From Comamonadaceae bacterium (GTDB taxonomy: Bacteria > Pseudomonadota > Gammaproteobacteria > Burkholderiales > Burkholderiaceae_C), in assembly GCA_947446885.1 (NCBI GenBank), contig CANFHZ010000002.1, forward strand, positions 1 to 58,736: 58,736 nt of DNA. The letters run 5' to 3'. Positions within the stretch are counted from its first letter, which is position 1, and each line of letters opens with the position of its first letter. The notes below the pieces were generated by a model. That model was not told the DNA's origin and did not search any database. It saw only the letters and a program-made list of their open reading frames with translations. This document shows positions 19,220 through 53,011 of this stretch, one piece after another. A program made the translations under genes and the position numbers.

Positions 19220-19322
19220 ATGCGGGCTGCGGTAAGCGGCAGACCTACAATGATTCGGGCTTGCGCGCCAAGCGGCGGGCGCATGGTGATGCCGTAGTGT
19301 TTTTGTTCACGAGGTGGGTCTT

Positions 19323-35536: not shown

Positions 35537-36694
35537 ATGGCTGACGACGACGCCCAACGTACCGAAGAACCGACCGCGCGGCGTTTGCGCCGCGCCCGCG
35601 ACGAAGGTCAGTTCGCCCGCTCCAACGAGGCAACTGGCGCTGCAGTGGTTTTGGGGGCTATGGCCATGATGGCTTACATGGGTGATTTGTGGTTCAACCA
35701 GATCGCCAAGTATTTCGCATCGGGTTTCACGTTTGACCGCAAGACGCTGGATACACCGATGCTGCTCCCTGCGGTATTCGGCAGCCAATTGACGAATGGC
35801 CTGTTGATGATTTTGCCGCTGATGCTGCTGACCGCAGTGCTGGCCATCATGGCCTCTGGTGTAACCGGTGGCTACCATTTTTCGCTGGCAGCGATTGCCC
35901 CCAAATTCGAGAAGCTCAGCCTGTGGAACGGTATCAAGCGCATGGTTGGCACCCAGGCTGCGGTGGAGCTGATCAAGTCGATACTGAAGTTCAGTTTGGT
36001 GGCCATGGTGTTGTTTCTGATGCTGGATCGCCATTTCAGCTCCCTGGTCTCGGTGGGTAACATGGAACTGGGGCCCGCCATGGCCTTGTCGGGTTCGCTG
36101 ATTTCGGAGTCCATGCTCTGGTTGGCCGGGAGTTTGTTGCTGATTGCGCTGATTGACGTGCCCTACCAGCGCTACAGCTTCATGAAGCGCATGCGCATGA
36201 CCAAGCAGGAAATCAAGGACGAGATGAAGGATATGGAGGGCCGCCCGGAGGTCAAGCAGCAAATCCGGCGCCGCCAGCGCGAGGTCGCGACCCAGCGCAT
36301 GATGCAAAAGGTCAAAGACGCCGATGTCATCATCACCAACCCGGAACACTTTGCCGTGGCGCTGTCCTACGATCCCACATCGGACGGGGCGCCGATCTTG
36401 CTGGCCAAAGGCGTGGATTTCACCGCCACCCGCATCCGCGAAGAGGCCAAAAACCATGGTATTGAAATTTTTGCCGCCCCCGAACTGGCCCGTGCGCTGT
36501 ACTTCACCACCGAGCTGGACCAATCCATCCCCGAAGCCCTGTACCACGCGGTGGCGCAGGTGATCGCCTACGTTTTCAGTCTGGCGCAGGTGCAGCCAGG
36601 TGTAGACCCGATGGCCCGCCCGGTGCCGAAAATTCCGAAAGCCATGTTGTTTGACACCGACGGCAAACCGCTGGTGCCGGAGGCTGCCGCATGA
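35537..36694 (+). CDS. flhB: Flagellar export switch protein FlhB (NPEH cleavage site)
   Basis: A 385-residue FlhB, the substrate-specificity switch of flagellar export. The N-terminus DDDAQRTEEPTARRLRRARDEGQ is canonical, four membrane segments follow, and the cytoplasmic domain begins near residue 215. The autocleavage motif, NPTH in the reference proteins, reads N268-P269-E270-H271 here; Asn and Pro, which carry out cleavage, are intact. The C-terminal tail is longer than in Salmonella. Its stop overlaps the next gene (ATGA). Confidence 0.96.
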   Translation: MADDDAQRTEEPTARRLRRARDEGQFARSNEATGAAVVLGAMAMMAYMGDLWFNQIAKYFASGFTFDRKTLDTPMLLPAVFGSQLTNGLLMILPLMLLTAVLAIMASGVTGGYHFSLAAIAPKFEKLSLWNGIKRMVGTQAAVELIKSILKFSLVAMVLFLMLDRHFSSLVSVGNMELGPAMALSGSLISESMLWLAGSLLLIALIDVPYQRYSFMKRMRMTKQEIKDEMKDMEGRPEVKQQIRRRQREVATQRMMQKVKDADVIITNPEHFAVALSYDPTSDGAPILLAKGVDFTATRIREEAKNHGIEIFAAPELARALYFTTELDQSIPEALYHAVAQVIAYVFSLAQVQPGVDPMARPVPKIPKAMLFDTDGKPLVPEAAA

Positions 36695-38145
36695 GATCGC
36701 CCTTGACCGCCCGGTCCGAAGACTTTGACGGCCAGTCGCCCCTGTTGTTCCGCGCTGCCGACATGCTGCGTCTGGAAGGCGTGGTGGCGGCTGTGACCCA
36801 GGACGGCATGAGCCTGGCGTTGGTAAGCCGCCACGAAGCCATACTGGACCACTACGGCAAGATTCTGGTGGAACGTCTGCGCGCCGTGGCACCCGAAATT
36901 GGCATCGAAATTTATTTCCCCGCCAGCGCAGAAGCGCTGCTGGCCCGCTTCAATTCGGCGCTGAGCGACTACACGGTGCAGCAGGCCATGGAAGCCAGCG
37001 TGCCGATTGCGCCACCCAAAATCTGGATCGTGCACGACGCTTCGGCCTTGCCCGACCATGAAATCCAGTTGCTGGCCCGGCTGATCCAGCATTTCCCGGG
37101 TGCCAATATCCGCATCGTCATGTTGCTGCCGCAGGGCAGCAAAAAGCAAAAATTGCTGATCTCATTTGGCCGTCGCATCCTGAACTGGGAGATTGATCCG
37201 CCTACGCCCGAGCAGGCTGACACCATGCTCGCCCAGGCCCAGATCCAGGGCCGGGAAGGCGCGGTGCGCGCTTTGCTCCAAAAAATTGCCGTGCCGCTCG
37301 CAGCGCCCACACCCGTTCCCGTAGAGGCGGCAACCCATGACGATCCGCCCTTGTTCGCGCCGTCTGTCGCGCCGCCAGCGGCCCCAGCGGCACCATCCCC
37401 GCCGGATACCGCCCCCGCTGCGCCTGCGCCTCCTGCGTCGAAGGCGCCCAAGGCTGCCCGGCGTTGGGCCGTCTGGTTGACCGGCATGGTGGTTTTGCTG
37501 CTCTTGTCGGCGGCCACAGTGGCGGTTTTGCACCGGGAGTCGGTGGTGCATTGGCTGGGTAACAAGCCTGCGGCGGAAGCGCCAGCCCCGGTGCCAGCCC
37601 AGCCGGTTTCCAGCGCGGTATTGGCTGTGCCACCCGTGGCTGGTGCGGTGATCACGCCGAACACGCCCGCAGTCGGGGTTGTTGGGCTTATTCCGCCCGC
37701 GCCCAGCCCAGCGCCAGCGCCTGCGGTGGCCCCGGTGCCAGCACCCCTTGCTGCGGTGCCGGAGCGGATCCCAGCCAGTGAAGAAGTGGTCATCGCCCCC
37801 GCGCAAATCCGTGCCGGACAGAGCTGGATCCAGGCCATGCCGGCAGGTACTTTCCTGCTTCAGCATGTGATCGTGCCCAGCTACACCGAGGCCAACCAGT
37901 GGATGCAGGCCCATACCAACCTCAAGCGTGCCCGCCTGGTTGCCTTTTATCTGCCAGGTGATACCAACACCCAGTTCTGCGTGGTGTCGGGGCCGTTTGA
38001 GTCTCTGGCAGCCGCTGCCGCCTACAACCAGAATCCCAATGTGCCCAGAGGGGGGCAAATCCGCTCGGCACGCTATATGAAAGAGCAATTCACGCCCGAA
38101 TCAGCGGACGCCTATGCCCAGAAACGCCAGGAGAACAAGCGATGA
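36691..38145 (+). CDS. SPOR-domain membrane protein, DamX-like layout
   Basis: A 484-residue protein. The first ~215 residues are a soluble domain reminiscent of a degenerate AAA ATPase (IWIVHDASALPDHEIQLLARLIQHFPGANIRIVMLL) with no Walker A motif. A Pro/Ala linker leads to one membrane segment (about 258-280), a second Pro/Ala linker, and a C-terminal SPOR-like domain from about residue 376. DamX has the same order, and SPOR domains bind denuded peptidoglycan at division or remodelling sites. The gene overlaps flhB by four bases and the next gene by four, so it is expressed with the export gate. Function is not known. Confidence 0.6.
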   Translation: MRSPLTARSEDFDGQSPLLFRAADMLRLEGVVAAVTQDGMSLALVSRHEAILDHYGKILVERLRAVAPEIGIEIYFPASAEALLARFNSALSDYTVQQAMEASVPIAPPKIWIVHDASALPDHEIQLLARLIQHFPGANIRIVMLLPQGSKKQKLLISFGRRILNWEIDPPTPEQADTMLAQAQIQGREGAVRALLQKIAVPLAAPTPVPVEAATHDDPPLFAPSVAPPAAPAAPSPPDTAPAAPAPPASKAPKAARRWAVWLTGMVVLLLLSAATVAVLHRESVVHWLGNKPAAEAPAPVPAQPVSSAVLAVPPVAGAVITPNTPAVGVVGLIPPAPSPAPAPAVAPVPAPLAAVPERIPASEEVVIAPAQIRAGQSWIQAMPAGTFLLQHVIVPSYTEANQWMQAHTNLKRARLVAFYLPGDTNTQFCVVSGPFESLAAAAAYNQNPNVPRGGQIRSARYMKEQFTPESADAYAQKRQENKR

Positions 38146-38546
38146 GTGAACCGGGATTGATCCGCAGCGGTGCGCCACATGAAGTGTCGGTTGCGCCCGG
38201 TAGCACGGTAGCGAAAAGCCGCTCGGCCTCCCCGCGCGACACCGTCATCCGCCAAAACGTGGCGGGTGAACCCGAATACGTGGATGTCGTCGATCCGGTG
38301 GAGCGCGACACGCTGGCGATTGGCAAACCCCGGGTCGATGTGCCCCATACCAGCGACGAGGCCGTTGTGGCCAACCGTGGCCGCTTGTTTACGGCAGAGC
38401 CCACCAAACCGCCGCCAGTTGAAGACGAAGCCGGAGAAATTGCCCCGGAGATGAACTTTCCGGCCCGTTTGATCCATCTGAAAATCGAAAACGAAAAAAT
38501 GCGCTCCTTGCTGGACGGGCTGGAGCAGGGCTTTGGGGCCTCGTAG
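38142..38546 (+). CDS. Hypothetical hydrophilic protein
   Basis: A 134-residue acidic, Pro-rich soluble protein that I do not recognise. Only the last 30 residues (PARLIHLKIENEKMRSLLDGLEQGF) look structured, as a short helix or coiled coil. It overlaps the SPOR gene by four bases and precedes a coiled-coil membrane protein by 30, so the three form a coupled set behind flhB. Confidence 0.6.
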   Translation: MSEPGLIRSGAPHEVSVAPGSTVAKSRSASPRDTVIRQNVAGEPEYVDVVDPVERDTLAIGKPRVDVPHTSDEAVVANRGRLFTAEPTKPPPVEDEAGEIAPEMNFPARLIHLKIENEKMRSLLDGLEQGFGAS

Positions 38547-38576: not shown

Positions 38577-39578
38577 ATGAACCAGGAAGACGCCAACGCG
38601 ACACCGGCTGCCGACGCAAGCGAGCAGCCTGACCCGCCCTTCGACGCACAGGACGTCCATGAGACGCCCAGCACCAGCGAGGAAAGCCCGGTGCAGGACG
38701 CCGCTGCAAGCGATGCCCCCCGTGTATTTGACGCCCAGACCCATGCCGTGACCACGACGGCGGTGGAAAAAGTGCTGGCGGACTTGCACGATAAGGAAGT
38801 CGAAGAAATCAACCAGCTCAAGTCCTCGCTGATCGACTCGGCTGAGTTGGCCACCCGGGCTTCGGGGCTGGCCGCCCTGGCCGGTGGGGCTATGCAAAAG
38901 GCCACCACCAAGCTCACCGAGACCTATGGCTCTGCCCAGCAGTTAGCCATGATTGTGTTGGCGGTTTTTGTCGCGCTCTCCGTTGTGGCGATCACGCTGT
39001 TCGGCTTCATGACTTACCGCTTGCAGGAGCGGGTCGGGCAGCTCGACGCCATGCTGGTTGCCGTTGGCAAGCGGGTGGTTGCCATGGACGAATCCATCGA
39101 TCTGTTCAATAACACGGGCAACCTGCTGGGCGACGTGTCGCTGAAACAAAGCGGTGTGGTGACCTCGCAAAAGCAACTCGAGTCGCGCGTGGATGATGTG
39201 GCCAAGGGCCTGAGCAATTTGATCGACGCGATGTCCAAAAAACCTGCCGCAGAAGGCAAGACCCAGGACAACACCAAGCAGTTGCAACAGGCGCTGGAGC
39301 AAACCACCAAGCAGGTGCAGGCGCTGGAGCAAAAAATCCAGGCCCAGGGTGAAATCCTGAAACAGTTGGCGGCCCAGGGACAGCGACCCGTGGTCGTGCA
39401 GACCGACGCAGCCGCGCTCAAGAAAGCCGCAGAAGCCGCAGCCAAAGGCGTTAAAGACAAGATGGACCAGGAGGCCGCTGCCCGCACCGCAGCCGCTGCG
39501 GCAGCCGCACCACCGGCTCCGCCGCCCAAACCACGCGAGCGTCCGGTGCAGTACCCGCGCCCCGGGACGACCGAGTAG
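38577..39578 (+). CDS. Bitopic coiled-coil protein of unknown function
   Basis: A 333-residue protein. An acidic N-terminal 100 residues precede one membrane segment (about 121-145, QQLAMIVLAVFVALSVVAITLFGFM). The C-terminal half is predicted coiled coil (QLQQALEQTTKQVQALEQKIQAQGEILKQL) followed by an Ala/Pro-rich tail. Which side faces the periplasm is not certain. It is last in the fliK-to-flhB run and may work with the SPOR protein; no homologue of known function is recognised. Confidence 0.6.
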   Translation: MNQEDANATPAADASEQPDPPFDAQDVHETPSTSEESPVQDAAASDAPRVFDAQTHAVTTTAVEKVLADLHDKEVEEINQLKSSLIDSAELATRASGLAALAGGAMQKATTKLTETYGSAQQLAMIVLAVFVALSVVAITLFGFMTYRLQERVGQLDAMLVAVGKRVVAMDESIDLFNNTGNLLGDVSLKQSGVVTSQKQLESRVDDVAKGLSNLIDAMSKKPAAEGKTQDNTKQLQQALEQTTKQVQALEQKIQAQGEILKQLAAQGQRPVVVQTDAAALKKAAEAAAKGVKDKMDQEAAARTAAAAAAAPPAPPPKPRERPVQYPRPGTTE

Positions 39579-39617: not shown

Positions 39618-40760
<1,143 letters not shown>

Positions 40761-40898
40761 AATGGTTTTGTGTCAACAAGGCCGGGGCAGCAGCCGGGAG
40801 AGGTGTTTACACGCCCTTCATGTCCAACGAGGCCGCATGATAGCAGCGACTGTCGATAAGCGGACACTTTTTCGACGGCGTGCGTTTTTGCCAAGCTT

Positions 40899-40972: not shown

Positions 40973-42298
40973 ATGACCCTCGCCTTGGCTGACCCCCGCA
41001 GCGCCGCCCTGACCAACCTGGGAAGCATGTATGCCCAGGGTCTGGGTGTGCCGCAGGATTTTGCGCAGGCCTTGCAGTGTTATGAATCGGCCGCGCTACG
41101 CGGCCAGGTGCAGGCACAGACCAACTTGGGTGTGATGCATGCGCATGGCCAGGGTGTTCCACAGGATTTTGCGTCCGCAGCGCGCTGGTACGAATCGGCC
41201 GCCGCCCAGGGAGAGCCCAGTGCCCAATCCCAGCTGGCCGCTTTTTACGCCAACGGAATTGGCGTTGCGCAAGACTTTGACCGCGCCCGCGCGCTCTATG
41301 AACAGGCCGCAGCCCACGGTGATCCACTGGCCCATGCCAATCTGGGCATCATGTACGCCAACGGCCAAGGCGTGAGCCCCGACCCGGAGCGGGCCCGCAG
41401 CCACTTTGCCCAGGGTGCTGATGCGGGCGAGGCCGCGGCCCAATACGGCATGGGTGTGCTGTGCGCCCAGAAAAATCCGCCCGACTGGGTGCAGGCCAAG
41501 GACTGGTACACCCGGGCCGGGCTGCAGGGGCATGTGCAGGCGCAGTTCAATCTGGGTCATTTGCACAGCGCGGTTGCGGACCTTGCACCCGATTACGACC
41601 AGGCTGTGCAGTGGTACGGCAAGGCAGCTGCCCAGGGCGATCCGGCTGCGCACTACAACCTCGGGGTGATGTACAGCAGCGGCCTGGGCCTTGCACGCGA
41701 CCCGGCGCAGGCGCTGGAACATTACCGTGCTGCCGCTGCGCTGGGCGAGGTGTCAGCGCAGTTCAACCTGGGGGTGATGGCACTCCTGGGCGAGGGCATG
41801 GACCAGGATTTTGCGCAAGCCCTGGCCTGGTTCGGCCAGGCCGCAGAGGCTGGCGACGCGCAGGCCCAATTGCAAATGGGCGTACTGATCGCCAACGGCC
41901 AGGGTACCCAGGCCAATGCCGAGGTCGCCTGCCAGTGGCTGCAATTGGCCGCCGACCAGGGTGAAGCCAATGCCTGGTTCAACCTGGGCCAGTTGTACGA
42001 GCGCGAGCAACCGGGTGGGCCACGGCTGCAGCAGGCTCTGGCCAGTTACCGCGCCGCTGCGGCGATGGGATTTGCCCCGGCGCAAGCCGCCCTGGGTTGG
42101 ATGTATGCCAAGGGCGCCGGCACCTTGCAGGACTATGTCAAAGCGCATATGTGGTTCAACATCGGTGCCACGGGTGGCAACGCCGCCGCCTTGGAGGGCC
42201 GCGACTTTGTGGCGGCCCGCATGTCACCGCAGCACATCGCGCAGGCGCAGGATTTGGCGCGCGAAGCCCAGAAAAAGCATTTGCAAGGCTATGACTGA
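40973..42298 (+). CDS. Sel1-repeat protein (11 repeats)
   Basis: A 441-residue protein made almost wholly of eleven Sel1-type TPR repeats of about 36 residues, with the pattern NLGxMYxxGxGVxxDxxxAxxWYxxAAxxG. No signal peptide or membrane segment is seen, so it is probably cytoplasmic. Such solenoids mediate protein-protein contacts; the partner is unknown. It is first in the cassette, divergent from the FleQ-like activator, and its last 8 bases overlap the next gene. An earlier start could exist but the ATG at 40973 begins close to the first repeat. Confidence 0.75.
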   Translation: MTLALADPRSAALTNLGSMYAQGLGVPQDFAQALQCYESAALRGQVQAQTNLGVMHAHGQGVPQDFASAARWYESAAAQGEPSAQSQLAAFYANGIGVAQDFDRARALYEQAAAHGDPLAHANLGIMYANGQGVSPDPERARSHFAQGADAGEAAAQYGMGVLCAQKNPPDWVQAKDWYTRAGLQGHVQAQFNLGHLHSAVADLAPDYDQAVQWYGKAAAQGDPAAHYNLGVMYSSGLGLARDPAQALEHYRAAAALGEVSAQFNLGVMALLGEGMDQDFAQALAWFGQAAEAGDAQAQLQMGVLIANGQGTQANAEVACQWLQLAADQGEANAWFNLGQLYEREQPGGPRLQQALASYRAAAAMGFAPAQAALGWMYAKGAGTLQDYVKAHMWFNIGATGGNAAALEGRDFVAARMSPQHIAQAQDLAREAQKKHLQGYD

Positions 42299-43649
42299 GA
42301 CCGCCGCTGCCGGGCACCTGTCTGCGGGCGCGCCGCAGGCTTTTTTCTCCCAGGAATGGGCCCAATTGGAAGATGCGCTGGACCAGGCCCGCTCGCGCAT
42401 CATGGTGCGCTGTCAGCACACGCTGGCACGGGTGGTTTTTGACGCCCTGGTGCAATCCCGCCGCGCCGGGGTGGCTGTGCAACTGGCCCTGCCCGACACC
42501 GCCTTGAACCGCCACTCGGCCATCGCCTGGGAGCGGCTGAGCGCCATCGGCGGCCAGATTGCCTGGTTGCCCAGCCCCACTGCAGCCACCGCTGATCTGC
42601 CTTTTCCGCCCCTGGTTGTGCTGCTGGACGACGCGCTGGTGTTCACCGGAAAACTCGGCACCGGTTTCTGTCCGGCTGACGACGCCGCTGCGGTGCCCGG
42701 CCTGGTGTGCTGGGGGGACGCCGATTTTGTGCGCCAGACCCGGCAGGTTGTGGATGAAGAGGCTGGCTGGCTGGCGCACAGTGCGGCGCCAGCCGGGGAC
42801 GAGTCGGCAGCGCGCTCGGTGCAATTACGGCAGGACGGCGGCGTGGTGCAGCAAGCCTGGCTGGCCCGCGTATTGCAAAACCATGCGCTGGCGACCCAAG
42901 CTGAAATTGCCGAGACGCAGCGCCAGATGGCTTTGTTTGACCACGCGCAAGAACAGGCCCTGGGCCCATTGATGCGGGACTACCTGCGCTGCAAAGCGCA
43001 GTATCTGCACCACCTTGCGCTGCAAGACCAGGCCGCGCGCGAGGAAGCCCGTGCGGCCCAGCAGCGCTGGGACGACTACGCATCTGCGCAGGCGGCCCCG
43101 GAGGAGGAAGCGGGGCCGGTCGATCTGGATGCCGATGCGCTGGATCAGCTCAAACAGCTCTACCGCAAATTGGCCATGCAATGCCACCCGGACCGGGTGG
43201 CTGACACCGACCAGGACCGCGCTGCGCAGTTGTTCCAATCCTTGCAAAGCAGTTACCGCCGTGGCGACATGGCGGCCCTGTTTGCTCTGCAGGAGTCGGT
43301 GGCGCGTGCCGGATTCCAGTTGCCGCGTGCCGATCCGCCGCCGCAGGATGCCGACGCAGCAGCGCAGAGTCAGGCAGCGGACGCAGCAAGCCAGGGCGCG
43401 CATGCGCGCCTGCGCGCCCTGCGCAGCGCCCTGGTCCAGCGCCAGAATGCGCTGGAGACCCTGCGCACCTCGGCAACCTGGCGTACCCTGAGCAGCCAAC
43501 CCAACTGGTCGCTCTGGTTTGCCCAGCAACAGCAGCACCTCCAGTCGGAATTGCAGCGTTTTGAGTCGGCTCTACAGGCCGGTGCGCCCGGCCCTGTGGC
43601 GCAGCCAGCGCCGCAGGACAGCGCAGCCCCCGCGGTATCGCATGTCTGA
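42291..43649 (+). CDS. J-domain protein with phospholipase-D-like N-terminal half
   Basis: A 452-residue protein. Residues about 30-125 resemble a phospholipase-D-like fold (SRIMVRCQHTLARVVFDAL, RRAGVAVQLALPD, PPLVVLLDDALVFTGKLG), but the catalytic HxK motif is not present, so it is probably non-enzymatic. A J-domain-like segment at about 283-330 (QLKQLYRKLAMQCHPDR) has the HPD motif at 299-301 that stimulates Hsp70. Coiled coils lie before and after it. It overlaps both neighbours by 8 bases, so translation is coupled. Function is unknown; recruitment of DnaK to the neighbouring repeat proteins is conceivable. Confidence 0.66.
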   Translation: MTETAAAGHLSAGAPQAFFSQEWAQLEDALDQARSRIMVRCQHTLARVVFDALVQSRRAGVAVQLALPDTALNRHSAIAWERLSAIGGQIAWLPSPTAATADLPFPPLVVLLDDALVFTGKLGTGFCPADDAAAVPGLVCWGDADFVRQTRQVVDEEAGWLAHSAAPAGDESAARSVQLRQDGGVVQQAWLARVLQNHALATQAEIAETQRQMALFDHAQEQALGPLMRDYLRCKAQYLHHLALQDQAAREEARAAQQRWDDYASAQAAPEEEAGPVDLDADALDQLKQLYRKLAMQCHPDRVADTDQDRAAQLFQSLQSSYRRGDMAALFALQESVARAGFQLPRADPPPQDADAAAQSQAADAASQGAHARLRALRSALVQRQNALETLRTSATWRTLSSQPNWSLWFAQQQQHLQSELQRFESALQAGAPGPVAQPAPQDSAAPAVSHV

Positions 43650-45156
43650 GGTGGGGGAGTCTGGCAGCGCCTTGCGCACGGTAGCCGGGCAAGGACTGAC
43701 ACGGGCCGGTGCCAAGCGTCTGGACCTGGTGGCGCAGACCCTGGACGATGTGCAGCAGCGCGAGACCCGTGCCTTCTTCGCCTCGCACCCGGTTGTGCTG
43801 CTGCACTGTGTGCAAAACCACTACCCGCTCGATGCTGAACTGCTGGCCACCCACGCCTTGCGCTGGGACTGGCGCCGGCTGAGCGCCAGCGCGGCCATAC
43901 CCTGGTCGCTGGACCTGCTCAGCCAGTTCGCCGATTACTGGGACTGGGACTCCCTCAGCAAAAACGGATCCCTGCCCTGGTCCAGCGCCTTGCTTCAGGC
44001 TTTTGTGCGGCGCTGGAACTGGGGCCTGCTCAGCAGCAACCCGTCGCTGCCCTGGAGCCTGGAACTGCTCGAGACATTCGCCCCCTTGTGGGATTGGCGC
44101 GTGCTCAGCCGCAACGCGGAACTGCCCTGGACCGGCGCGCTCATCACCGGCAACACCCACCTGTGGGACTGGGTGGGCCTGAGCTGGAACGACGGCCTGC
44201 CCTGGAACATCACGCTGATGACGCGCTTTGCCGAGCGCTGGGACTGGACCGGCCTGAGCGCCAATCCCGGTTTGCCGCTGGATGCCGACCTGGTGGCCGA
44301 ATTTGCCCCGCTGTGGAACTGGTCCTGGCTGAGCCGCAATACCCAGCTTGCCGCAGACGCCGACCTGCTCCACGCCTATGCCGACCAGTGGGACTGGACG
44401 GCGCTGAGCCAGCGCCGCCTGCTGCGCTGGAGTCCCGACCTGATTGCCCGCTTTGCCACCCGTTGGGATTGGCATGCGCTGAGTGCCAATGCCGCATTGC
44501 CCTGGACCGAGGATGTGCTGCTGCAGTGGGAAGACCGCTGGGACTGGCAGGCCTTGAGCGGCAATACCGGACTGGCTTGGACGGAAGCGCTGGTGGAGCG
44601 CTACGTATCGTCCTGGGATTGGGAGCAGCTGAGCGAAAACCCGGCCCTGCCCTGGAGCCCGGAATGGGTGGCGCGCTGGGCCGATCACTGGGATTGGGAT
44701 CGGCTGAGCTGGAACCCGGCCTTGCCCTGGTCGCATCCGGGTGCGGTGGGCATGCTGCAGGCGCATGCTGACCGCTGGGATTGGGCTGGCCTGAGCCAGA
44801 GCGCGCACATGCCCTGGTCGCATGCCTGGCTTGATGCCTGTCTGGAGCGTTGGGACTGGGAGCGCCTGAGTGCCAATCCAGCCTTGTTCGCGGCAGTAGG
44901 TGCGGCCATAGACACTGCTGCGGCCGCGGCTTTCGTCAACCGCTACGCCGACCAGTGGAATTGGGCCACCCTGAGCGGTCAGGCCACGCTGCCCTGGTCC
45001 CAGGGCTTTTACCGGCTCTGCGCCGACCAGGTTTTTCCACATCTGGTGGCGCAGCACCAGGATTTTGGCGTCTCCACCCTTGGCGCTGACGTGGTGGCTG
45101 GCTTGTTGGCGGATTTGGACAGCGGCGAAATCTTGCCGGGTACGCATATTGCTTGA
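43642..45156 (+). CDS. W[DN]W-repeat protein (15 repeats)
   Basis: A 504-residue protein that I do not recognise by function. From residue 75 to about 460 it has fifteen W[DN]W motifs; the first twelve are spaced exactly 25 residues apart, the rest at 29, 25 and 35. The unit reads W[DN]W-x2-LS-x-N-x2-LPW-x4-L-x5-(F/Y). This suggests a regular helical solenoid with stacked tryptophans. No signal peptide is seen. It overlaps the J-domain gene by 8 bases. The last ~45 residues are non-repetitive. Confidence 0.75.
   Translation: MSEVGESGSALRTVAGQGLTRAGAKRLDLVAQTLDDVQQRETRAFFASHPVVLLHCVQNHYPLDAELLATHALRWDWRRLSASAAIPWSLDLLSQFADYWDWDSLSKNGSLPWSSALLQAFVRRWNWGLLSSNPSLPWSLELLETFAPLWDWRVLSRNAELPWTGALITGNTHLWDWVGLSWNDGLPWNITLMTRFAERWDWTGLSANPGLPLDADLVAEFAPLWNWSWLSRNTQLAADADLLHAYADQWDWTALSQRRLLRWSPDLIARFATRWDWHALSANAALPWTEDVLLQWEDRWDWQALSGNTGLAWTEALVERYVSSWDWEQLSENPALPWSPEWVARWADHWDWDRLSWNPALPWSHPGAVGMLQAHADRWDWAGLSQSAHMPWSHAWLDACLERWDWERLSANPALFAAVGAAIDTAAAAAFVNRYADQWNWATLSGQATLPWSQGFYRLCADQVFPHLVAQHQDFGVSTLGADVVAGLLADLDSGEILPGTHIA
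43864..45015 (+). repeat. 75-base periodic repeats encoding W[DN]W units
   Basis: The coding sequence repeats at 75-base intervals, with TGGGACTGG or TGGGATTGG at the head of most units and CTGCCCTGG a few codons on. Units are diverged between these anchors, so the repeat is best seen in protein. It is a coding repeat, not a CRISPR array. Confidence 0.8.
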
Positions 45157-45246
45157 TTCGCGCTGAATTGTCCCTTCTTGCCGCTTTGCGCTGCCCGGCC
45201 TTACAGCCTGGGCGACCGGGGCGTGCCCATCGTCAAGGATTCCGGA

Positions 45247-45459
45247 ATGAGCCTATTGCATCCACTGGCACCCGCGCAGCACATGCAGGCACAGGCACAT
45301 CTTCCGCGCGAGGATTACCAGGAGCCTGAGCCGGTAACGGCCCACATCGTGGCCCACCAACTGCACGTGCCGCACGGCCAGCGGCTGCACAGCAGCACCC
45401 ACCAATTCCATGCGCCCCAGCACCAGGCGCTGGGAGCGGTTCTCATCCCGCACGAGTGA
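45247..45459 (+). CDS. Small His-rich protein
   Basis: A 70-residue reading frame with twelve histidines, spread from LHP near the start through VAHQLHVPHGQRLHSSTHQFHAPQHQ. It has a good ribosome binding site (AAGGA, 7 bases before the ATG) and lies in the 320-base gap between the W[DN]W and large Sel1 genes. It has no membrane segment. Metal binding is conceivable. A coding frame on the opposite strand also exists, and no homologue is recognised, so this call is weak. Confidence 0.42.
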   Translation: MSLLHPLAPAQHMQAQAHLPREDYQEPEPVTAHIVAHQLHVPHGQRLHSSTHQFHAPQHQALGAVLIPHE

Positions 45460-45478
45460 TCCGCCCGCCGGTGCTGCT

Positions 45479-48109
45479 GTGAAAACCCTGCTCGACGACG
45501 CCAACGCCGCCTACCGCCGGGGCGACTTCGCCAATGCCTTGCGCATTTCGCGGCCCTTGGCGTCGCTGGACTACGCCGCCGCCCAAAACAACCTGGGCTT
45601 TATGTACGCCAACGGCCAGGGCGTGAACCAGGATTACCAGGAAGCCCTCAAGTGGTACCGCCTGGCTGCCGCCCAGGGCTACGCTCCGGCGCAATACAAC
45701 CTGGGCTTTATGTATGCCAACGGGCAGGGCGTGGCGCGCGACGACGCCTTGGCGCTGGACTGGTACGAGCAGGCGGCCGAGCAAGGTTTGTCCGACGTGC
45801 AGACCAATTTGGCTTTTATGTATGCCAACGGCCAGGGCGCAGCGCAGGACAGCGCCCGCGCCGCCCACTGGTTTGCCAAAGCCGCAGCCCAGGGTGATGC
45901 CACAGCGCAGTTCCACCTCGGCTTGATGTATGCCCAGGGCGACGGATTGCCGCAGGATATGGTGCAGGCGCTCAAGTGGTACGAGTCCGCTGCCGCCCAG
46001 GGCCATGCCTACGCCCAACTCAAACTCGGTCTCCTGCTCTCGCAGGGCCAGCATCCGGCGGTGCCGCAGGATCTGGGGCAGGCGCGCAAGTGGTACGCCC
46101 TGGCGGCCGGACAAGGTGACGCGGCGGCCCAGTTCAATTTGGCTTTGATGCATGCCCAGGGTCAGGGCGCGGAGGCCGACCTCTGCGCAGCCCATGCCCT
46201 GTACACCCAGGCGGCGCAGAGCGGCCTGGCTTGCGCCCAGTTCAATCTGGGTGTTTTGTACGCCACCGGCCAGGGCTGCGAGGCCGATATGGACAAGGCC
46301 ATCGACTGCTACCGCGCCGCTGCTGCGCAGGACTACCCGCAAGCCATCTTCAATCTCGCTGTGCTGAGCGCCAACGGCGAGCACCTGCCGCTTGACATGA
46401 CCGAAGCCAGGGCCGCTTACGAACGTAGCGCCGCTTTGGGCTTGCCCCAAGCGCACTATGTGCTGGGCTGTCTGGCGCAGCGTGGCGCGACGGCGGATCT
46501 GGCGACCGCACGCCAGCACTACCAGGCGGCTGCTGATCTCGGCCATGCCGGGGCGCAGTGCAACCTGGGTGCGCTGTATGCCATGGGCATGGGTGTGAGC
46601 GCCGATCCGGTGCTGGCCGCCCAGTGGTACCGGCGTGCCGCAGAACAGGGCGACGCGCTGGCCCAGTGCAACTGGGGCTTGCTGTTGTTGCAGGCCGTCG
46701 ATGCCGCGCGGCACTACGGCCAGGCTTTTGCGCTGCTACGCCAGTCTGCCGATGCGGGTAACGCCGAGGCGCTCTACACCTTGGGCGTGATGTATGCCCA
46801 GGGCTGGGGTGTCCCCGCCGATGCGGCGCAGGCCGCGCTGTGTTTTGAACCGGCAGCCTTGACACACCATGCCCATGCCTGGTTCAACCTGGGGGTGATT
46901 TACGCCTCGGCCAGCGACGGCGGTGCCGATACGGCACCCGCATCCGGGCGCGAGGAAGGCCATGCGTTTGCGCGCGATATTCCCCGTGCGGCACAGAGTT
47001 TGCGCGAGGCAGCGGCCCTGGGTTGCGCCCAGGCCCACCACAACCTGGGCGTGCTGTTTGCGCTGGGTCAGGGCATGCCGGTGGACGTCTGGGAGGCTGC
47101 CACCCATTACCAGGCCGCAGCCGAGGCGGGCGATCCCAGTGCGCAGTACGCCCTGGGCATGTTGCTGGCGCAAGAAGACCCCGCTGCCCGCGCAGACCCC
47201 GGATCCAAGCAGGCGGCTTTTGCCGCGCTGGAGGCCAGCGCGCTGCTGCGTGCCGCTGCCGACCAGGGCCACCCCGGTGCGCTGCAACAGTACACCCTGA
47301 TGCACGCTGGCAGCAGCGATTTCCGTCCCGACTTCCGCCGAATTCTGGACAACTACCGCAGCCAGGCTGATGCCGGGGATGCGGCTGCGCAGTTCAACCT
47401 GGCGCTGATGTACGACCTGGGCCAGGGCACGCCGGTTGACAAGGCCCTGGCGGCGCATTGGTACGCCAAAGCCGCTGCACAGGCGCTGGCGCTTGCACAG
47501 TACAACCTGGGCGTTTTGCGCTGGCGCGTCCGCGCGCAGGACCCCAGCGCGCTGAACCAGGCGCAGACCCACTGGGAAGCTGCTGCCGCCACCGGCCTGG
47601 CACAGGCGCAGTTTGCGCTGGGGCTGGCCGTGCAGGCTGCGGGTGGCGATCCCGGTCGGTCCCTGGAATACTTCGATCAGGCCGCTCAGCAAGGCCATGT
47701 GCAGGCCCTCTTCAACCTGGCCAACGGCCTGCGGCTGACCGGGCTGGATTCCGATGCGCCCGATCTGTCCGCGCTGGTGCGCGCAGCCCAGGCCTACGAG
47801 CGTGCCGCGCAGCTGGGCGATGTGCTCGCCATGTACATGCTGGCACGGGCCCACTGGCACGGGGAGGGCCTGCCCACCAGCGCCGACCAGGCCCTCCACT
47901 GGTACACCCGTGCCGCCGATCAGGGCGATGCCGGGGCCCAGTTTTGCCTGGGACATATGTATGCCAACGGCCAGGGTGTCGCGCAAGACTACACCCTGGC
48001 CGCCCGCTGGTATCTGGCCGCCGCCGGGGTGCCGGCACGTCCTGAACCCCCACCCACTTCACCACCCACGCCTCAAGAAGTCGGCCTGACTGCCGATGTT
48101 CACGGGTAG
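45479..48109 (+). CDS. Large Sel1-repeat protein (about 22 repeats)
   Basis: An 876-residue protein consisting of about 22 Sel1-type TPR repeats, the first few nearly identical (FMYANGQGV), with irregular insertions near repeats 13, 15 and 20. No signal peptide or membrane segment is evident. GTG 45479 begins just before the first helix (VKTLLDDANAAYRRGDF); an in-frame ATG at 45410 would overlap the small His-rich gene. It resembles the 441-residue protein at 40973 and probably arose with it by duplication and repeat expansion. It precedes the FlgP-like lipoprotein gene by 20 bases. Confidence 0.75.
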   Translation: MKTLLDDANAAYRRGDFANALRISRPLASLDYAAAQNNLGFMYANGQGVNQDYQEALKWYRLAAAQGYAPAQYNLGFMYANGQGVARDDALALDWYEQAAEQGLSDVQTNLAFMYANGQGAAQDSARAAHWFAKAAAQGDATAQFHLGLMYAQGDGLPQDMVQALKWYESAAAQGHAYAQLKLGLLLSQGQHPAVPQDLGQARKWYALAAGQGDAAAQFNLALMHAQGQGAEADLCAAHALYTQAAQSGLACAQFNLGVLYATGQGCEADMDKAIDCYRAAAAQDYPQAIFNLAVLSANGEHLPLDMTEARAAYERSAALGLPQAHYVLGCLAQRGATADLATARQHYQAAADLGHAGAQCNLGALYAMGMGVSADPVLAAQWYRRAAEQGDALAQCNWGLLLLQAVDAARHYGQAFALLRQSADAGNAEALYTLGVMYAQGWGVPADAAQAALCFEPAALTHHAHAWFNLGVIYASASDGGADTAPASGREEGHAFARDIPRAAQSLREAAALGCAQAHHNLGVLFALGQGMPVDVWEAATHYQAAAEAGDPSAQYALGMLLAQEDPAARADPGSKQAAFAALEASALLRAAADQGHPGALQQYTLMHAGSSDFRPDFRRILDNYRSQADAGDAAAQFNLALMYDLGQGTPVDKALAAHWYAKAAAQALALAQYNLGVLRWRVRAQDPSALNQAQTHWEAAAATGLAQAQFALGLAVQAAGGDPGRSLEYFDQAAQQGHVQALFNLANGLRLTGLDSDAPDLSALVRAAQAYERAAQLGDVLAMYMLARAHWHGEGLPTSADQALHWYTRAADQGDAGAQFCLGHMYANGQGVAQDYTLAARWYLAAAGVPARPEPPPTSPPTPQEVGLTADVHG

Positions 48110-48129: not shown

Positions 48130-48729
48130 ATGAACCGCCCCACCCAACTCCTGCTTGTTCTGCTTGTGCCATTTCTGGCCGCTTGCGAGGGAATTCCCCT
48201 GCACCTGGGGGCCGCGCCAACCATGAGTCCGGCTGCAGCAAGCGCACCAGCGGCTGGCGCTGCATCCGCACCCGGCACGGCACCGGTAGCACCCGTGGCT
48301 GCTGCATCACCGGCTGCCCAGCTTGCGTCCGCCTCCACAAGCTTGGATGCCGGCACGGTGGTGGCACCCCTGGTGGAGCGCCGTGAAACCCTGACCGCTA
48401 CCGGATATGCGGTTATCAGCGTGCAAAACCACCGCAACCCCGCGCAACAGCGCTTGCTCGCCATCCGCGCCGCCAAGCTGGATGCCTACCGCGCCCTGAC
48501 CGAACAGGTCTATGGCCTGAAGGTCGAGGCCAATGCCACCGTGGCCGACATGGTGGTGCAGAACGACACCTTCCGCAGCCGCGTCGAAGGCGTGATCTTC
48601 GGTGCCACGTTGGTCAGCATCACCCCCGCAGGCGACGACACCTACGAGGTGACGCTTACGCTGGACCGTCCCGTGGTCCAGGACCTGCGCGCCCTGTACC
48701 TCTCGCAAATGATTGCCAAGGCCCGCTAG
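48130..48729 (+). CDS. FlgP-like LPP20-family outer-membrane lipoprotein
   Basis: A 199-residue lipoprotein: signal peptide MNRPTQLLLVLLVPFLAAC with a lipobox (LAAC), an Ala/Pro/Ser linker, and a domain of about 110 residues (GYAVISVQ, LLAIRAAKLDAYRALTEQVYG, VQNDTFRSRVEGVIFGATLVSI, YEVTLTLD). This resembles the LPP20/FlgP family; FlgP builds extra outer rings round the flagellar base in Vibrio and Campylobacter. AAAGGA before the ATG gives a good ribosome site. The FlgT-like gene follows 9 bases later, which supports the call. Confidence 0.74.
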   Translation: MNRPTQLLLVLLVPFLAACEGIPLHLGAAPTMSPAAASAPAAGAASAPGTAPVAPVAAASPAAQLASASTSLDAGTVVAPLVERRETLTATGYAVISVQNHRNPAQQRLLAIRAAKLDAYRALTEQVYGLKVEANATVADMVVQNDTFRSRVEGVIFGATLVSITPAGDDTYEVTLTLDRPVVQDLRALYLSQMIAKAR

Positions 48730-48738
48730 GCACGGCGT

Positions 48739-49986
48739 ATGCACCGGTCCGGTTTTTTGAATTCTCCCCGCCTGCCGCGTGCGGTTTGCCGCTTGGCAGG
48801 CCCACTTGCGTTGGCGCTGCTTGTACTGGTCGGGCAGGGGCCGGCCACCGCCCAGGCATTGAGCGCCGAGGAGCGCTTGGCTGCCGTGCGCCAAAGCTTG
48901 CTGCAGGCGGCCTTGGAGGCACCGACCCAGGTCGTTGCCACCAGCTGGATTGACGGCCAGGGCGTGCTGCGTGAGATGAACTCCTTTCGCAACGGCATGC
49001 AGGTGCGCGGTGTGCGCATCGTGTCGTATGAGCGCGACGCCCTTGGACAGCCCAGTGCGGCCGTGCAATGGGACAAGTCTGCGGGCAGCGAGGATGCGGC
49101 GGATAAATCCGGCAAAGCCGATAAAGCGCCAGCCGTCTGCGCTCCGTCCAGTGAACGCTTCAAGCACCTGGTCACCCTGAATTGGGTGCCCCCCGCTGGA
49201 CTGCCCGCCGATGAACGGGCCATGCTGGAATCGGTACGGGCTTTGGTGAGCGCGCGCATACGCGCCAGCGCCACGGCCGCGGGTCACTGGAAGGTGCGCG
49301 ATAAATTACCGGAGCCCGAAGGCGCATATGCCCGCGCCCTGCTCGGCGAAGCCAACCCGGCCACCGGCTGGACGGCCACGCTGACGGCTACGCTGGTGCC
49401 GCCACTGACCGCGCAAGCGCCCGCCAAACCCGCGCCCGATCCCGATGTGATTGCGGTGCGCAACCAGGCTTTGCTGGGTGGACCCAGTCCGGTGCAGGTG
49501 TATTGGGACCGTTCGCCCCGTTTTTCGGTACGTTTGGAGTTGTCGCTGCACGAGCGCGAGGCCGGTCGGCCCGGCTTCCAGCGGACCTTGCATTTGGATT
49601 TGTTGTCCGAGCAGAACGGCTTCGGCCCGGTTCAGCTCAGCGAGGCCACACGCAATGCCATCAGCCCGCACATCAGCTATCTGGCTGACGCCATGGGCAG
49701 CGCGCTGGCTTGCCGGGCGTTTAACCCGCAGGTGACGCTGGTCAACGGTGGCCAGTTTCAGATTGACGCCGGCGCCGCATCCGGCATCCAGGTCGGTGAC
49801 GAGTGGGTGCTGGTCAACGCGCAGCAGATTCCCCAGCGCAGCCTGGATGCGGGTGTGATCGCCCAGACCGTGCTGGCGCGTGTCAGCAGTGTGGGCGAGG
49901 GCAGCGCGCAGTTGCAATGGTTGGCTGGTCCGCAAAAAGCCGTGCAAGCCCAATGGCGGGCCTGGCCGGCGCGCGGCATGCCCTGA
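48739..49986 (+). CDS. FlgT-like flagellar ring protein
   Basis: A 415-residue exported protein with a signal peptide (LAGPLALALLVLVGQGPATAQA). The first mature domain (AVRQSLLQAALEAP, GVLREMNSFRNGMQVRGVRIVSY) and the C-terminal NGGQFQIDAGAASGIQVGDEWVLVN resemble the N- and C-terminal domains of FlgT, a periplasmic H-ring protein of Vibrio. Likeness is by pattern only. It is flanked by the FlgP-like lipoprotein and a LysM-like protein, fitting an accessory basal-body ring set. Confidence 0.6.
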   Translation: MHRSGFLNSPRLPRAVCRLAGPLALALLVLVGQGPATAQALSAEERLAAVRQSLLQAALEAPTQVVATSWIDGQGVLREMNSFRNGMQVRGVRIVSYERDALGQPSAAVQWDKSAGSEDAADKSGKADKAPAVCAPSSERFKHLVTLNWVPPAGLPADERAMLESVRALVSARIRASATAAGHWKVRDKLPEPEGAYARALLGEANPATGWTATLTATLVPPLTAQAPAKPAPDPDVIAVRNQALLGGPSPVQVYWDRSPRFSVRLELSLHEREAGRPGFQRTLHLDLLSEQNGFGPVQLSEATRNAISPHISYLADAMGSALACRAFNPQVTLVNGGQFQIDAGAASGIQVGDEWVLVNAQQIPQRSLDAGVIAQTVLARVSSVGEGSAQLQWLAGPQKAVQAQWRAWPARGMP

Positions 49987-50039: not shown

Positions 50040-50492
50040 ATGGCCCCCATCGCCCACCATCCTCGCCGGCTTGTTCTGGGCCGTGCCATCGGCATGGGCC
50101 TGGCTGCGTGCAGCCTGCTGGCCGTATTTCTGCTGTACACCCACCCGGTTGCGGCGGCCGAGGCGGCCCCGGCGGCGGCCAAGCCTGCCGCCAGCTATGT
50201 CCCGCGCGCTGGAGAGACGCTGGACCATGTGATACAGGTCACCATGCCCGAGAGTCCGCTGAAGATGGATTTGTTGCGCCGCGCGTTCATCAACCAGAAC
50301 CCGCAGGCTTTTGTGACCCCCTTGACCACCCCGCCACGTATGAAAAAAGGCGCTGTGCTGACGGTGCCGGATCACCAGAAATTACTGCAGGCCACCCTGG
50401 CACCGCTGGTGGCCGAGCCCGGCGGCGATACCTACGCCCCCGCTGCGGTCAGCAGTTCCGATGACCGCAAGCGTTGGGTGCGCTACCCCTGA
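50040..50492 (+). CDS. FimV/LysM-like envelope protein
   Basis: A 150-residue protein with an N-terminal hydrophobic segment (GMGLAACSLLAVFLLYTHPVAAA), probably a signal or anchor. A single domain follows, like the FimV N-terminal/LysM region (RAGETLDHVIQVTMPESPLKMDLLRRAFINQNPQAF, KKGAVLTVPD). Such domains bind peptidoglycan. AGGAG lies 8 bases before the ATG at 50040. Its position between the FlgT-like and FliK-like genes suggests a flagellar envelope role. Confidence 0.6.
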   Translation: MAPIAHHPRRLVLGRAIGMGLAACSLLAVFLLYTHPVAAAEAAPAAAKPAASYVPRAGETLDHVIQVTMPESPLKMDLLRRAFINQNPQAFVTPLTTPPRMKKGAVLTVPDHQKLLQATLAPLVAEPGGDTYAPAAVSSSDDRKRWVRYP

Positions 50493-50513: not shown

Positions 50514-52634
50514 GTGATCTCCATTACCGAGAACAGCGCGCAGCTGATTCGCCCTGCGCCTGTGGTCTTTCCACAGGGACCGGCCTCGCTGCCCTTGGTG
50601 GAGGCCAGCGTGGCCCGTTTGCTCAACCTGACCGATGGGCAGGTGGTTCAGGGCACGGTGCAGACCCAGGGTGACCAACTCGCCTTGTTGCTGCGCGGGC
50701 GCTTGCTGGACTTGCCGCCCACCATGGATTGGACGGTCGGGCAGCGCCTGAACCTGCGCGCCCAGATGAACTCCGACGGCACGCTGATCTTGAATCGGCT
50801 GCCCACACCCGGGCAGGGCAAATCCGCGCCCGGGGCTGGCACGACTGGCCATACGGCAAGCGGCGCGCAGGACGGCTCCGCCCCGGCCACTGCCGGCGCA
50901 CGCGCGGGCCTTGCACCGTCCGGCACCAGCGTAGACGCGGCATCCGGGCCGCGCCAGCAAGCCAATCCACCGCCTCCGCCTTCCAGTGTTCCGGCGGGCA
51001 CGCTCTACCCGCCGCCAGCCGCAACAAATCCCTCGCCACGTGGCGAGGCTTCCCCCTCACCCGCGCCCGGCGCGCCAACGCAGACGCCACCAAACAACCC
51101 GGCACCCGCCGGTGCAGGCTCGCCGCCAGCGGAAGATTCGGCCTATCGGGCTGCGACCCGTACGCCGCAGTCCGCTGGCCTGCCCGGCAGCAGCGCCGAG
51201 CCGCTGTCCGCGCAACGCGCGCTATATGCCGGCCCCGAACCTGTTGCTGCCGCAAACGTAGCCCCTGCCATGGGAGCTGCCATGGCGCGCAGCATGCAGC
51301 TGGATCCGGCGCAGGCCGGGGCTGTGGCGCAGCAGCAGGTAGCCGCGGAACAGCCCGCCCGCCAGGCTGCGGGACCCCGAAGACCCGCCACTGCCGGCGC
51401 ACCCCCCGCGGCTGCACGCCAGATGGAGCCGGGCAGCAGCGCCTATGCCCCGCCTCTGGTGGCCTTGGACCCTTTGCCAGCGCCCGCCGAGCCGCTGCCC
51501 GCCCCTGCCGTTGCACGGGTGGACGCGCCCACTGTGCAAGCCATGGGCCTGAAAGACGGCCAGGTTTTACAGGCCAGCGTACAGGCGCGTGATGGTGCCC
51601 TGGGTTTTGTGGTGGATGGGCGCGTGCTGCCGACCCTGCAGCCCGGTGCGCAGGATGACCCCTTGCTGGTCAATTTGCGGGTAGAGATCAACGAAGACGG
51701 TAGCGCCACCCTGCACAACCTGCTGGCCCCCGCAGCCAGGCCCGCCCTGGCCGCCGCGCCGCTGGCTTTGGCCCCGGTATCGCTCGGTGGCGTACTCGCC
51801 ACGGTGGCCGAGGAAATTCCCCAGCGCGTGACCCTGGGCCCACAGGATTTTTTCTCCCGGCTGGGCAGTCTGCTGTTCCGGGCCAACGGGCTGCCGGAGA
51901 TGGTCAATTTGTTCACCAGCGGCACCCTGGATGCGGTGCTGGGGCAGATCGGGCGGCCCGATTTGCAGGCCCAGTGGGCGCGCCAGCGCCTGAGCATGGC
52001 GCAGCTCTCGGCGCGCGATGTGCGCGGTGCCGTGCAGTCGGCGCTGGGCTCGGAGCGCGGCTTGCTCAGCGGCGTGGAGCGCGACATGCCGGCCAACGAC
52101 ACCAAGCAGTTGCTCATGGGTGTGCTGGCCTCCATGGGTTCTATGGATGAACTCAACGGCGATGATTTGCGCACCGCCCAACATCTGCAGCGCGGCGTGG
52201 ATGATTTGGAGTCCGCCCAGGTGCGTGCCGCCCAGGCCCAGACCCAGCAGGAGCTGGTGTTCAACATGGTCATTCCCTTCAAAGACGCTGCGCCCGTGGA
52301 AATCCAGTTTGAGCGCCGCCGCACCAGCGAGGGCAAGACTACGCCCTTTACCGTCAACGTCCATTCCACCAGCACCGATTACGGTGAACTCTGGCTCAAG
52401 ACCGAGCTGCAGGGCAAAGACCAGGTTGATCTGGTGATGTGGGCGCGCCGTGCTGCAGTGGTGGACATGGCGCAGGCCGGTGCCACCAGCTTGGGGCAGC
52501 AGCTGCAGGCCTCCGGGCTGGCTATGCGCTCCTTTCAGGTGATCCACGGTGAGCGCCCGGGCAGCAACCCGGATGCGGCCGCGGAGCCCCCGGTCTCCGC
52601 CCTGGCAGGCGCTGTGTTGGATATCCGCGCATGA
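50514..52634 (+). CDS. Second FliK-like hook-length control family protein
   Basis: A 706-residue protein. The N-terminal part (residues 1-100) and a matching stretch at about 340-410 (VQAMGLKDGQVLQASVQARDGALGFVVDGR) resemble each other and suggest an internal duplication. A long Pro/Ala region lies between. The C-terminal ~150 residues (FNMVIPFKDAAPVEIQFERRR, ELWLKTELQGKDQVDLVMWAR) resemble the FliK C-terminal domain. It overlaps the FlhB-like gene by four bases, a pairing that mirrors the FliK-FlhB interaction. GTG start. Confidence 0.7.
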   Translation: MISITENSAQLIRPAPVVFPQGPASLPLVEASVARLLNLTDGQVVQGTVQTQGDQLALLLRGRLLDLPPTMDWTVGQRLNLRAQMNSDGTLILNRLPTPGQGKSAPGAGTTGHTASGAQDGSAPATAGARAGLAPSGTSVDAASGPRQQANPPPPPSSVPAGTLYPPPAATNPSPRGEASPSPAPGAPTQTPPNNPAPAGAGSPPAEDSAYRAATRTPQSAGLPGSSAEPLSAQRALYAGPEPVAAANVAPAMGAAMARSMQLDPAQAGAVAQQQVAAEQPARQAAGPRRPATAGAPPAAARQMEPGSSAYAPPLVALDPLPAPAEPLPAPAVARVDAPTVQAMGLKDGQVLQASVQARDGALGFVVDGRVLPTLQPGAQDDPLLVNLRVEINEDGSATLHNLLAPAARPALAAAPLALAPVSLGGVLATVAEEIPQRVTLGPQDFFSRLGSLLFRANGLPEMVNLFTSGTLDAVLGQIGRPDLQAQWARQRLSMAQLSARDVRGAVQSALGSERGLLSGVERDMPANDTKQLLMGVLASMGSMDELNGDDLRTAQHLQRGVDDLESAQVRAAQAQTQQELVFNMVIPFKDAAPVEIQFERRRTSEGKTTPFTVNVHSTSTDYGELWLKTELQGKDQVDLVMWARRAAVVDMAQAGATSLGQQLQASGLAMRSFQVIHGERPGSNPDAAAEPPVSALAGAVLDIRA

Positions 52635-53011
52635 GCTACCGCCGCCAAGCCATTGCCCTGGAGTACGGCCAACATCTGACGCCGGTGGTGACGGCCAAGG
52701 GCGACGAAGAGATTGCGTTGGCCATGATTGCCCAGGCCCAGGCCAACGGCGTCTACATCACCCAAGATCCGCAGCTGCTGGCGCTGCTGAGTCGGCTCAA
52801 CGTGGACGATGAGATTCCGCCTGAGTTGTATGCGGCGGTGTCGGTGATTCTGTCCTGGGTGTACTGGCTCAAAGGCATGCGTCCGGGCGATGAAAAAGCA
52901 GGGCTGGAGCAGGCTGAGCAGGCTTTGACTACGCCCGGCGGCGTAGAAGAAAAAGGTGAAGAGGGGGTTGAGGGGCGCGGCCCCTCGGATCCGGTGGACG
53001 GCCTGGCTTAG
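52631..53011 (+). CDS. FlhB C-terminal domain paralogue (FhlB type)
   Basis: A 126-residue soluble protein aligned with the part of FlhB after the cleavage site: AIALEYGQHLTPVVTAKG matches AVALSYDPTSDGAPILLAKG, and IPPELYAAVSVILSWVYWL matches the end of the domain. It lacks membrane segments and the NPxH motif, beginning where cleaved FlhB would begin. Such stand-alone proteins can substitute in part for the FlhB cytoplasmic domain. It is coupled to the FliK-like gene (ATGA). The last 40 residues are acidic and low-complexity. Confidence 0.8.
   Translation: MSYRRQAIALEYGQHLTPVVTAKGDEEIALAMIAQAQANGVYITQDPQLLALLSRLNVDDEIPPELYAAVSVILSWVYWLKGMRPGDEKAGLEQAEQALTTPGGVEEKGEEGVEGRGPSDPVDGLA

Follow-up and report, generated by a model that had tools for sequence, protein, structure and literature searches.

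A five-gene unit of Sel1-repeat, J-domain and tryptophan-repeat proteins at a fixed site in a flagellar locus of Comamonadaceae: a possible chaperone-recruiting scaffold

The polar flagellum of Vibrio alginolyticus, which also uses FlhF and FlhG, is acted on by SflA, a single membrane protein combining a J domain with a TPR/Sel1-like domain, the repeats being periplasmic. In the absence of FlhF and FlhG, SflA acts as a repressor of flagellation, by a mechanism given as unknown; it is presented as Vibrio-specific and encoded outside the flagellar clusters (PMC7226244). The stretch analysed here (the window; 58,736 nucleotides of contig CANFHZ010000002.1, assembly GCA_947446885.1, from a Comamonadaceae bacterium) carries, at 40973–48109 within a flagellar cluster, five forward-strand genes, denoted A–E, that distribute comparable domains over separate proteins: two Sel1-repeat proteins (A and E), a J-domain protein with a degenerate phospholipase D (PLD)-like domain (B), a tryptophan-repeat protein (C) and a small histidine-rich protein (D). 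No description recognised as the A–E unit was found in the open-licence literature. The place and order of A–E are fixed, B and C form a coupled core pair, the HPD motif of B is retained and the block is absent as a whole from three genus-mates; for these reasons we regard A–E as one machine tied to this flagellum. Tentatively, and with somewhat less than even confidence, we read them as a unit inherited together, forming a cytosolic scaffold that would recruit DnaK, serve this flagellar system and likely control its assembly.

The likeness to SflA lies in the J domain of B and in the Sel1 repeats, which occur in A and E and not in B, such that the J-domain polypeptide itself carries none. A–E differ from SflA in being separate proteins without export signals, in lying inside the cluster, and in the degenerate PLD domain of B and its tryptophan-repeat partner C. 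A hydropathy scan, the one method applied, found no strongly hydrophobic stretch or export signal in A, B, D or E (the largest mean over 19 residues is 1.33 for A, with A, B and E spanning 1.27–1.34), and neither a membrane span nor a periplasmic N-terminal domain of the SflA kind is apparent. Because the parts are separate and lack export signals, A–E are not members of the SflA family, although their way of working may be alike. A likewise matches the model for Vibrio MotX (E = 7.6e-30) through its Sel1 repeats, but scores 104 bits against an NCBIfam cut-off of 330 and shows no export signal; this match, together with those of A and E to MerG, AlgK and ExoR, all below cut-off, was set aside as Sel1 cross-matching.

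The five reading frames stand where the sequence-only reading of this DNA had placed them: A at 40973–42298 (441 residues), B at 42291–43649 (452 residues), C at 43642–45156 (504 residues), D at 45247–45459 (70 residues) and E at 45479–48109 (876 residues from a GTG start). A profile of C matched 34 of 103 genomes of the genus, and in 32 of these C lies at the flagellar site, giving 33 loci (one genome, G004, has two). That reading had also proposed its own refutation, in part that the genes would prove scattered independently among relatives; instead the genes occur together and on site in 33/33 loci, in the order activator, A, B, C, D, E, flgP, flgT, fliK, to the limits of the contigs. Twenty-four loci reach from the activator to flgP on a single contig and nine are cut by contig ends, none showing another order; D was found in all 29 loci whose contig extends beyond C. 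Two loci (L029 and L030), which appear identical to contigs in G303 and G317, were not double-counted, and two additional genomes (G002 and G310) have E ahead of flgP on contigs that start inside E. Order and place are kept even though pairwise identity falls as low as 45% for A, 27% for B, 38% for C, 15% for D and 47% for E. Two diverged flagellar loci (L034 and L036), each with a cassette, occur in the G004 bin, which either has a second system or is mixed (3% contamination).

C was found off site in just two of the 34 genomes that have it: G023, which carries a B/C-like pair, and G012, which carries a diverged but open C frame of 520 residues on a 3976-base contig. No A, D or E matches lie near either gene, although no genome-wide search was made for these three. 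Beyond the genus, C was detected in 0/24, 0/398 and 0/397 other genomes (overlapping samples), the order and phylum scans (399 and 398 genomes, with three to four candidates scored per genome) matching only G000. The B profile was swamped in the wider family by J and PLD domains, with matches in 200/200 genomes, the window's own gene alone being at full length among the matches listed.

In the window, A and B share ATGACTGA and B and C share ATGTCTGA, bearing out the 8-base overlaps reported for the first three genes. The A/B overlap of 8 bases recurs in 9/33 loci (the window's clade and two others) and is elsewhere replaced by a gap of 6–170 bases. The B/C junction, measured with the start codon nearest to it, stays between −8 and +2 bases in 33/33 loci (8-base overlap in 6, 4-base overlap in 22, 2-base gap in 5). 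As B and C are tight in all loci and A and B are not, we consider B–C the core pair. D–E distances of −95 and −50, and an E–flgP distance near 2685, were treated as artefacts.

J proteins that interact with DnaK carry an HPD motif with a basic stretch ahead of it. B comprises a PLD-like region (approximately residues 19–150), a long helical middle, a J domain with HPD (approximately residues 279–322) and a helical tail. Its description as a J-domain protein with a degenerate PLD-like half stands, with a Pfam DnaJ match at E = 2.3e-6 (28.0 bits vs a cut-off of 27.8), the PLD match staying below threshold (E = 0.18). HPD is kept in 33/33 flagellar B proteins, and K288, R292, K293, H299, P300 and D301 are invariant in ten members; on sequence, B thus has the HPD and preceding basic stretch of a J protein predicted to interact with DnaK. 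All ten members match DnaJ, and seven have PLDc_2 matches with E-values no higher than 0.5, the best being 4.4e-9. A profile of the ten, made without P0002 (the B relative in G023), matches the PLD endonuclease Nuc (PDB:1byr) at E = 1.3e-7 as well as J-domain chains, the best of these at E = 8.6e-6. B differs from these proteins in that its J domain is internal and the catalytic histidine and lysine of Nuc are replaced, the aspartate and following glycine being kept. The catalytic HxKx4D (HKD) motif is present at the PLD site in 0/33 flagellar copies; a chance occurrence at residue 264, far from that site, was noted in G028 and G304. The PLD half of B is, judging from these alignments, real and non-catalytic.

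The free-standing pair in G023 (L043 7768–10678) lies among transporter genes rather than at a flagellar site, and its two genes overlap by 8 bases, ATGAGTGA. P0002 matches Pfam PLDc_2 at E = 2.8e-18, with an intact HHKFCVID motif and HPD. A profile of the 33 flagellar B proteins finds P0002 at E = 1.1e-53 (best of 200 shuffles 0.13), and the partner of P0002 is matched at E = 1.3e-118 by a profile built on 30 flagellar C proteins (best of 200 shuffles 200). From G023, the single case bearing on this point, we infer that PLD catalysis may have been lost from an active ancestor. P0002-like proteins were found in 0/200 genomes at E 1e-15, a weak test in that the window's own B is also missed at this setting. 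The G023 pair is possibly an element with its own function. A supposed PLD–J fusion in G116 (L059) was not supported by gene calling.

C contains 15 W[DN]W motifs, spaced by exactly 25 residues in 12 of 14 intervals, where 2000 letter shuffles gave at most six motifs, in agreement with its description as a W[DN]W-repeat protein. The AlphaFold2 model (from three sequences) is a regular run of short paired helices with a mean predicted local distance difference test score (pLDDT) of 76.1, mostly 83–95 across the repeats and below 50 at both ends. None of the 168 weak matches that Foldseek gave against the PDB reached E 0.001; against the viral models of BFVD it returned 47 matches at E ≤ 0.001, the best to an unnamed entry (2.7e-18), of which seven are named tryptophan repeat gene family (best E = 4.3e-14). 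The predicted helical solenoid resembles models from that family in entomopoxviruses, from giant viruses and from Bacillus phage G, and C, as modelled, shows the tandem W-x-W repeats and helical solenoid that characterise the family; template modelling (TM) scores normalised by query length are 0.22–0.56, so stretches rather than the whole protein match. C differs from the viral proteins in its bacterial flagellar locus and its coupling to a J protein. Neither Pfam nor NCBIfam returned a repeat model for C, and a Sigma_1s match (Pfam E = 4.7e-7, over the cut-off) was taken as a match of composition. Sequence relatives were found, for the G023 protein rather than for C, in 4/72,556 plasmid and 2/50,697 phage records, with no pattern match in viral contigs; on a Hymenobacter plasmid (L155 1061–6136) a tryptophan-repeat region lies within a protein annotated as a DarT-like ADP-ribosyltransferase.

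A and E are Sel1-repeat proteins by Pfam (E = 2.3e-73 for A; 6e-101 for a longer frame of E). The earlier count of 11 repeats for A stands: nine stretches pass in Pfam, and a repeat profile derived from A and E gives 11 units (one weak) and a marginal twelfth. That of about 22 for E holds approximately: 14 stretches pass in Pfam, the repeat profile gives 23, several of them weak, and about 20 units are counted from the GTG start. This start, at 45479, is likelier than the ATG at 45410 inside D, since orthologues are called with ATG at the former position (e.g. L029–L031), and E would therefore not overlap D. D, with 12 histidines, is the small His-rich protein of the earlier account and has no match in Pfam, NCBIfam or PADLOC. 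The window's own genome (2.6 Mb) has 24 Sel1 matches, all of them in A, E or a small protein (19314–19811; 165 residues, two units), which lies near MotA/MotB-like genes across the cluster.

The flgT-like gene serves as a marker for this kind of locus, and its profile matched 33 of the 103 genus genomes. The unit is present in 29 of these (27 with C, two with E only), one contig (G307) ends short of the site, and in three genomes (G017, G027 and G322) the activator lies 212 bases from flgP, A–E are missing and the neighbours are kept as far as the contigs reach. In the family, a flgT-like gene was found in 10/250 genomes including the window's; in the nine others, from five genera, the activator adjoins flgP and the unit is absent (9/9), while a tenth stretch (G1060 contig 1) gave a weak flgT-like match only. 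As nine genomes of five related genera and three genus-mates keep the locus without the block, the unit is an optional addition. Two small likenesses were noted in other-genus loci: a 46-residue Sel1-like stretch in L146, and, at L149 11724–11864 (G145), where flgP and flgT flank it, a weak 47-residue likeness to D (34%), which is either noise or a His-rich relative.

In a tree of the activator, flgP, flgT and FlhB (38 of 44 loci; six with too few of these genes were left out), the empty genus-mates fall within the cassette-bearing rows, and forcing the 27 cassette rows into one clade costs 34 log-likelihood units (approximately unbiased (AU) test, p = 0.02); this is a quick tree with long outgroup branches that join one another, and it had been seen before the AU test was made. 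One gain on the genus stem followed by one loss as a block is the favoured history, a late gain being disfavoured. Over the 26 tips that they share, the A+B+C tree and the flanking tree agree in 18/23 splits (for shuffled tips, 0.22 on average and 2 at most), arguing for vertical inheritance of A–B–C; with the joint absence of A–E from three genus-mates, this answers the concern that the genes might be scattered independently in relatives. Ratios of non-synonymous to synonymous substitution (dN/dS) in five close pairs are 0.04–0.24 for A–E (0.04–0.11 for D alone) and 0.01–0.35 for the neighbours, a value of 0.87 for flhB in G028/G304 being set aside (80 codons, contig-edge pieces); by this measure A–E are under purifying selection. 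No insertion marks were seen at the cassette flanks (longest exact direct repeat 7 bases, inverted 6) and the window has no tRNA. G+C content at third codon positions is 0.75–0.80 for A–E, like that of flgP–flgT and fliK (0.76–0.78), and so gives no sign of recent transfer.

Between the activator and A lies an inverted-repeat box, TGTC-N8-GACA (40851–40866), a possible regulator site. A TGTC-N7/8-GACA match occurs in 31/33 cassette loci, 3/3 empty genus loci and 1/8 other-genus loci (in three of these eight the intergenic stretch is too short for the box), compared with 0.7% of letter-shuffled regions. The window alone has two matches vs 0.74 expected by chance, and support for the box is therefore its conservation among related rows. 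As the box is also found at empty loci, the unit adjoins a region that is present without it; this placement is compatible with expression of the unit alongside flagellar genes. A candidate promoter of A (TGGTACG-N4-CTGCA) was set aside, being confined to one clade, with no match of that quality in the window, and a sigma-70 scan for a promoter of A found none vs 1.0 expected.

The surrounding cluster encodes FliR, FlhB, FliA, an FlhF-like GTPase, a MinD-type ATPase, FlgA and FlhA, with dnaA, dnaN and gyrB approximately 20 kb away. The left neighbour of A, divergent from the cassette and present in 33/33 cassette loci, is a sigma-54 activator (39618–40760, reverse strand) with AAA+ (Pfam Sigma54_activat, E = 8.5e-71) and Fis-type helix-turn-helix (HTH_8, E = 1e-13) parts; as only these parts are present (residues 13–375), the name 'FleQ-like' holds for them alone. 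Among the 'flagellar ring genes' of the same account, the LPP20/FlgP-like lipoprotein to the right of E (48130–48729, forward strand; E = 1.8e-8) is borne out, and the FlgT-like protein (48739–49986, forward strand) is weak (FlgT_C E = 0.0075, below cut-off). The flagellum of this locus is probably polar, because the locus has FlhF-like, MinD/FlhG-like, flgP-like and flgT-like genes. The proposed tie to flagella holds for one type of flagellar locus and not for flagellated species at large: of 103 genus genomes, 91 have FlhA, 34 have C and 33 a flgT-like gene, and 60/91 FlhA-bearing genomes have no flgT match, some owing to missing contigs.

The genus seems to have more than one kind of flagellar locus, FlhA being approximately 711–780 residues long in many cassette genomes and approximately 693–706 in many others, with one of each size class in G008. 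Four unnamed cluster genes (36691–38145, 38142–38546, 38577–39578 and 50040–50492) recur genus-wide and partly in other genera; they include a 484-residue protein with a tail that looks SPOR-like by eye, without Pfam support, two proteins of unknown family and a 150-residue protein between flgT and fliK. After fliK, a stand-alone FlhB C-terminal domain is encoded at 52631–53011 (Bac_export_2, profile positions 262–335, E = 1.4e-14).

In the mechanism that we tentatively propose, the J domain of B would recruit and stimulate DnaK, with C, produced in proportion to B through coupled translation, as its solenoid partner; the Sel1 solenoids A and E would hold the client or assembly site, the PLD-like domain of B would act as a non-catalytic binding or dimer domain, and D would be an accessory. 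By analogy with SflA, such a machine would probably control or proof-read flagellum assembly post-translationally, at the level of basal body number, place or completion. The label 'scaffold and chaperone' given to these genes earlier was itself drawn from their domains. A further and rather doubtful extension is that a pair like that of G023, a PLD enzyme–J fusion with a virus-type tryptophan-repeat solenoid, was domesticated into the flagellar locus, lost catalysis, acquired a pair of Sel1 arms together with a small His-rich subunit, and turned into a DnaK machine specific to the flagellum, setting its assembly.

Several points weigh against the proposed role. The three genus-mates and nine other-genus loci keep the remaining cluster without the unit, which is therefore not needed to retain the flagellum, and most FlhA-bearing genus-mates lack it. 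The FlhF-like SRP54-type GTPase scores 138.7 bits vs an NCBIfam cut-off of 174.15. The AlphaFold2 model of B is poor (mean pLDDT 45.5), so that its layout is read from sequence, and the step to assembly control follows one precedent of different topology.

It is also conceivable, although unlikely, that A–E contribute to the motor or pole structurally or as a sensor, in the form of a solenoid-built cytosolic ring, an anchor at the pole or an accessory to the switch complex, the J domain serving only the assembly of that part. A, C and E are predicted repeat solenoids, FlgP/FlgT-like ring genes adjoin them and other polar motors carry additional rings; the rings of FlgP, FlgT and MotX are, however, periplasmic or outer-membrane, a location at odds with the hydropathy of A, B, D and E, and the ring genes persist at sites from which the unit is absent. 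To the idea that the unit is a passenger, engaged in general proteostasis or another task and merely sharing this neighbourhood, we give little credence: Sel1 and J proteins are multi-purpose and most flagellated genus-mates do without the unit, but C is off site in so few of the genomes that carry it, and order and place outlast a divergence that leaves as little as 15% identity in D.

Less probable again is a defence or stress element derived from a PLD-type pair, riding in or guarding the flagellar locus, for example against flagellum-entering phages. Such an origin would suit the G023 pair with its intact PLD motif among transporter genes, the presence or absence of the unit as a block, the tryptophan-repeat relatives in jumbo phages, giant viruses and plasmids, and the weak matches of the PLD part of P0002 to PADLOC MkoC (E = 2.7e-6) and DrmC (E = 3.8e-6). 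It sits poorly with the absence of the PLD motif from all 33 flagellar copies, with vertical inheritance at a single site, and with how little PADLOC-DB returns for A–E, where no match was convincing (B to LmuB, E = 0.3; A to PtuA, 0.092; E to PtuA, 1.5e-5 with no single stretch passing; none for C or D).

If A–E are indeed a DnaK-recruiting scaffold of this flagellar system, they would provide an independent case for the question, raised by Vibrio SflA, of how polar flagella are influenced by J-domain and Sel1-like proteins, and one with the added value of natural presence and absence at a single site. B looks like a PLD enzyme turned non-catalytic partner, and beside this J protein a fold otherwise met here only in predicted models of viral proteins now appears in a definable cellular setting, which makes its role accessible in a bacterium.

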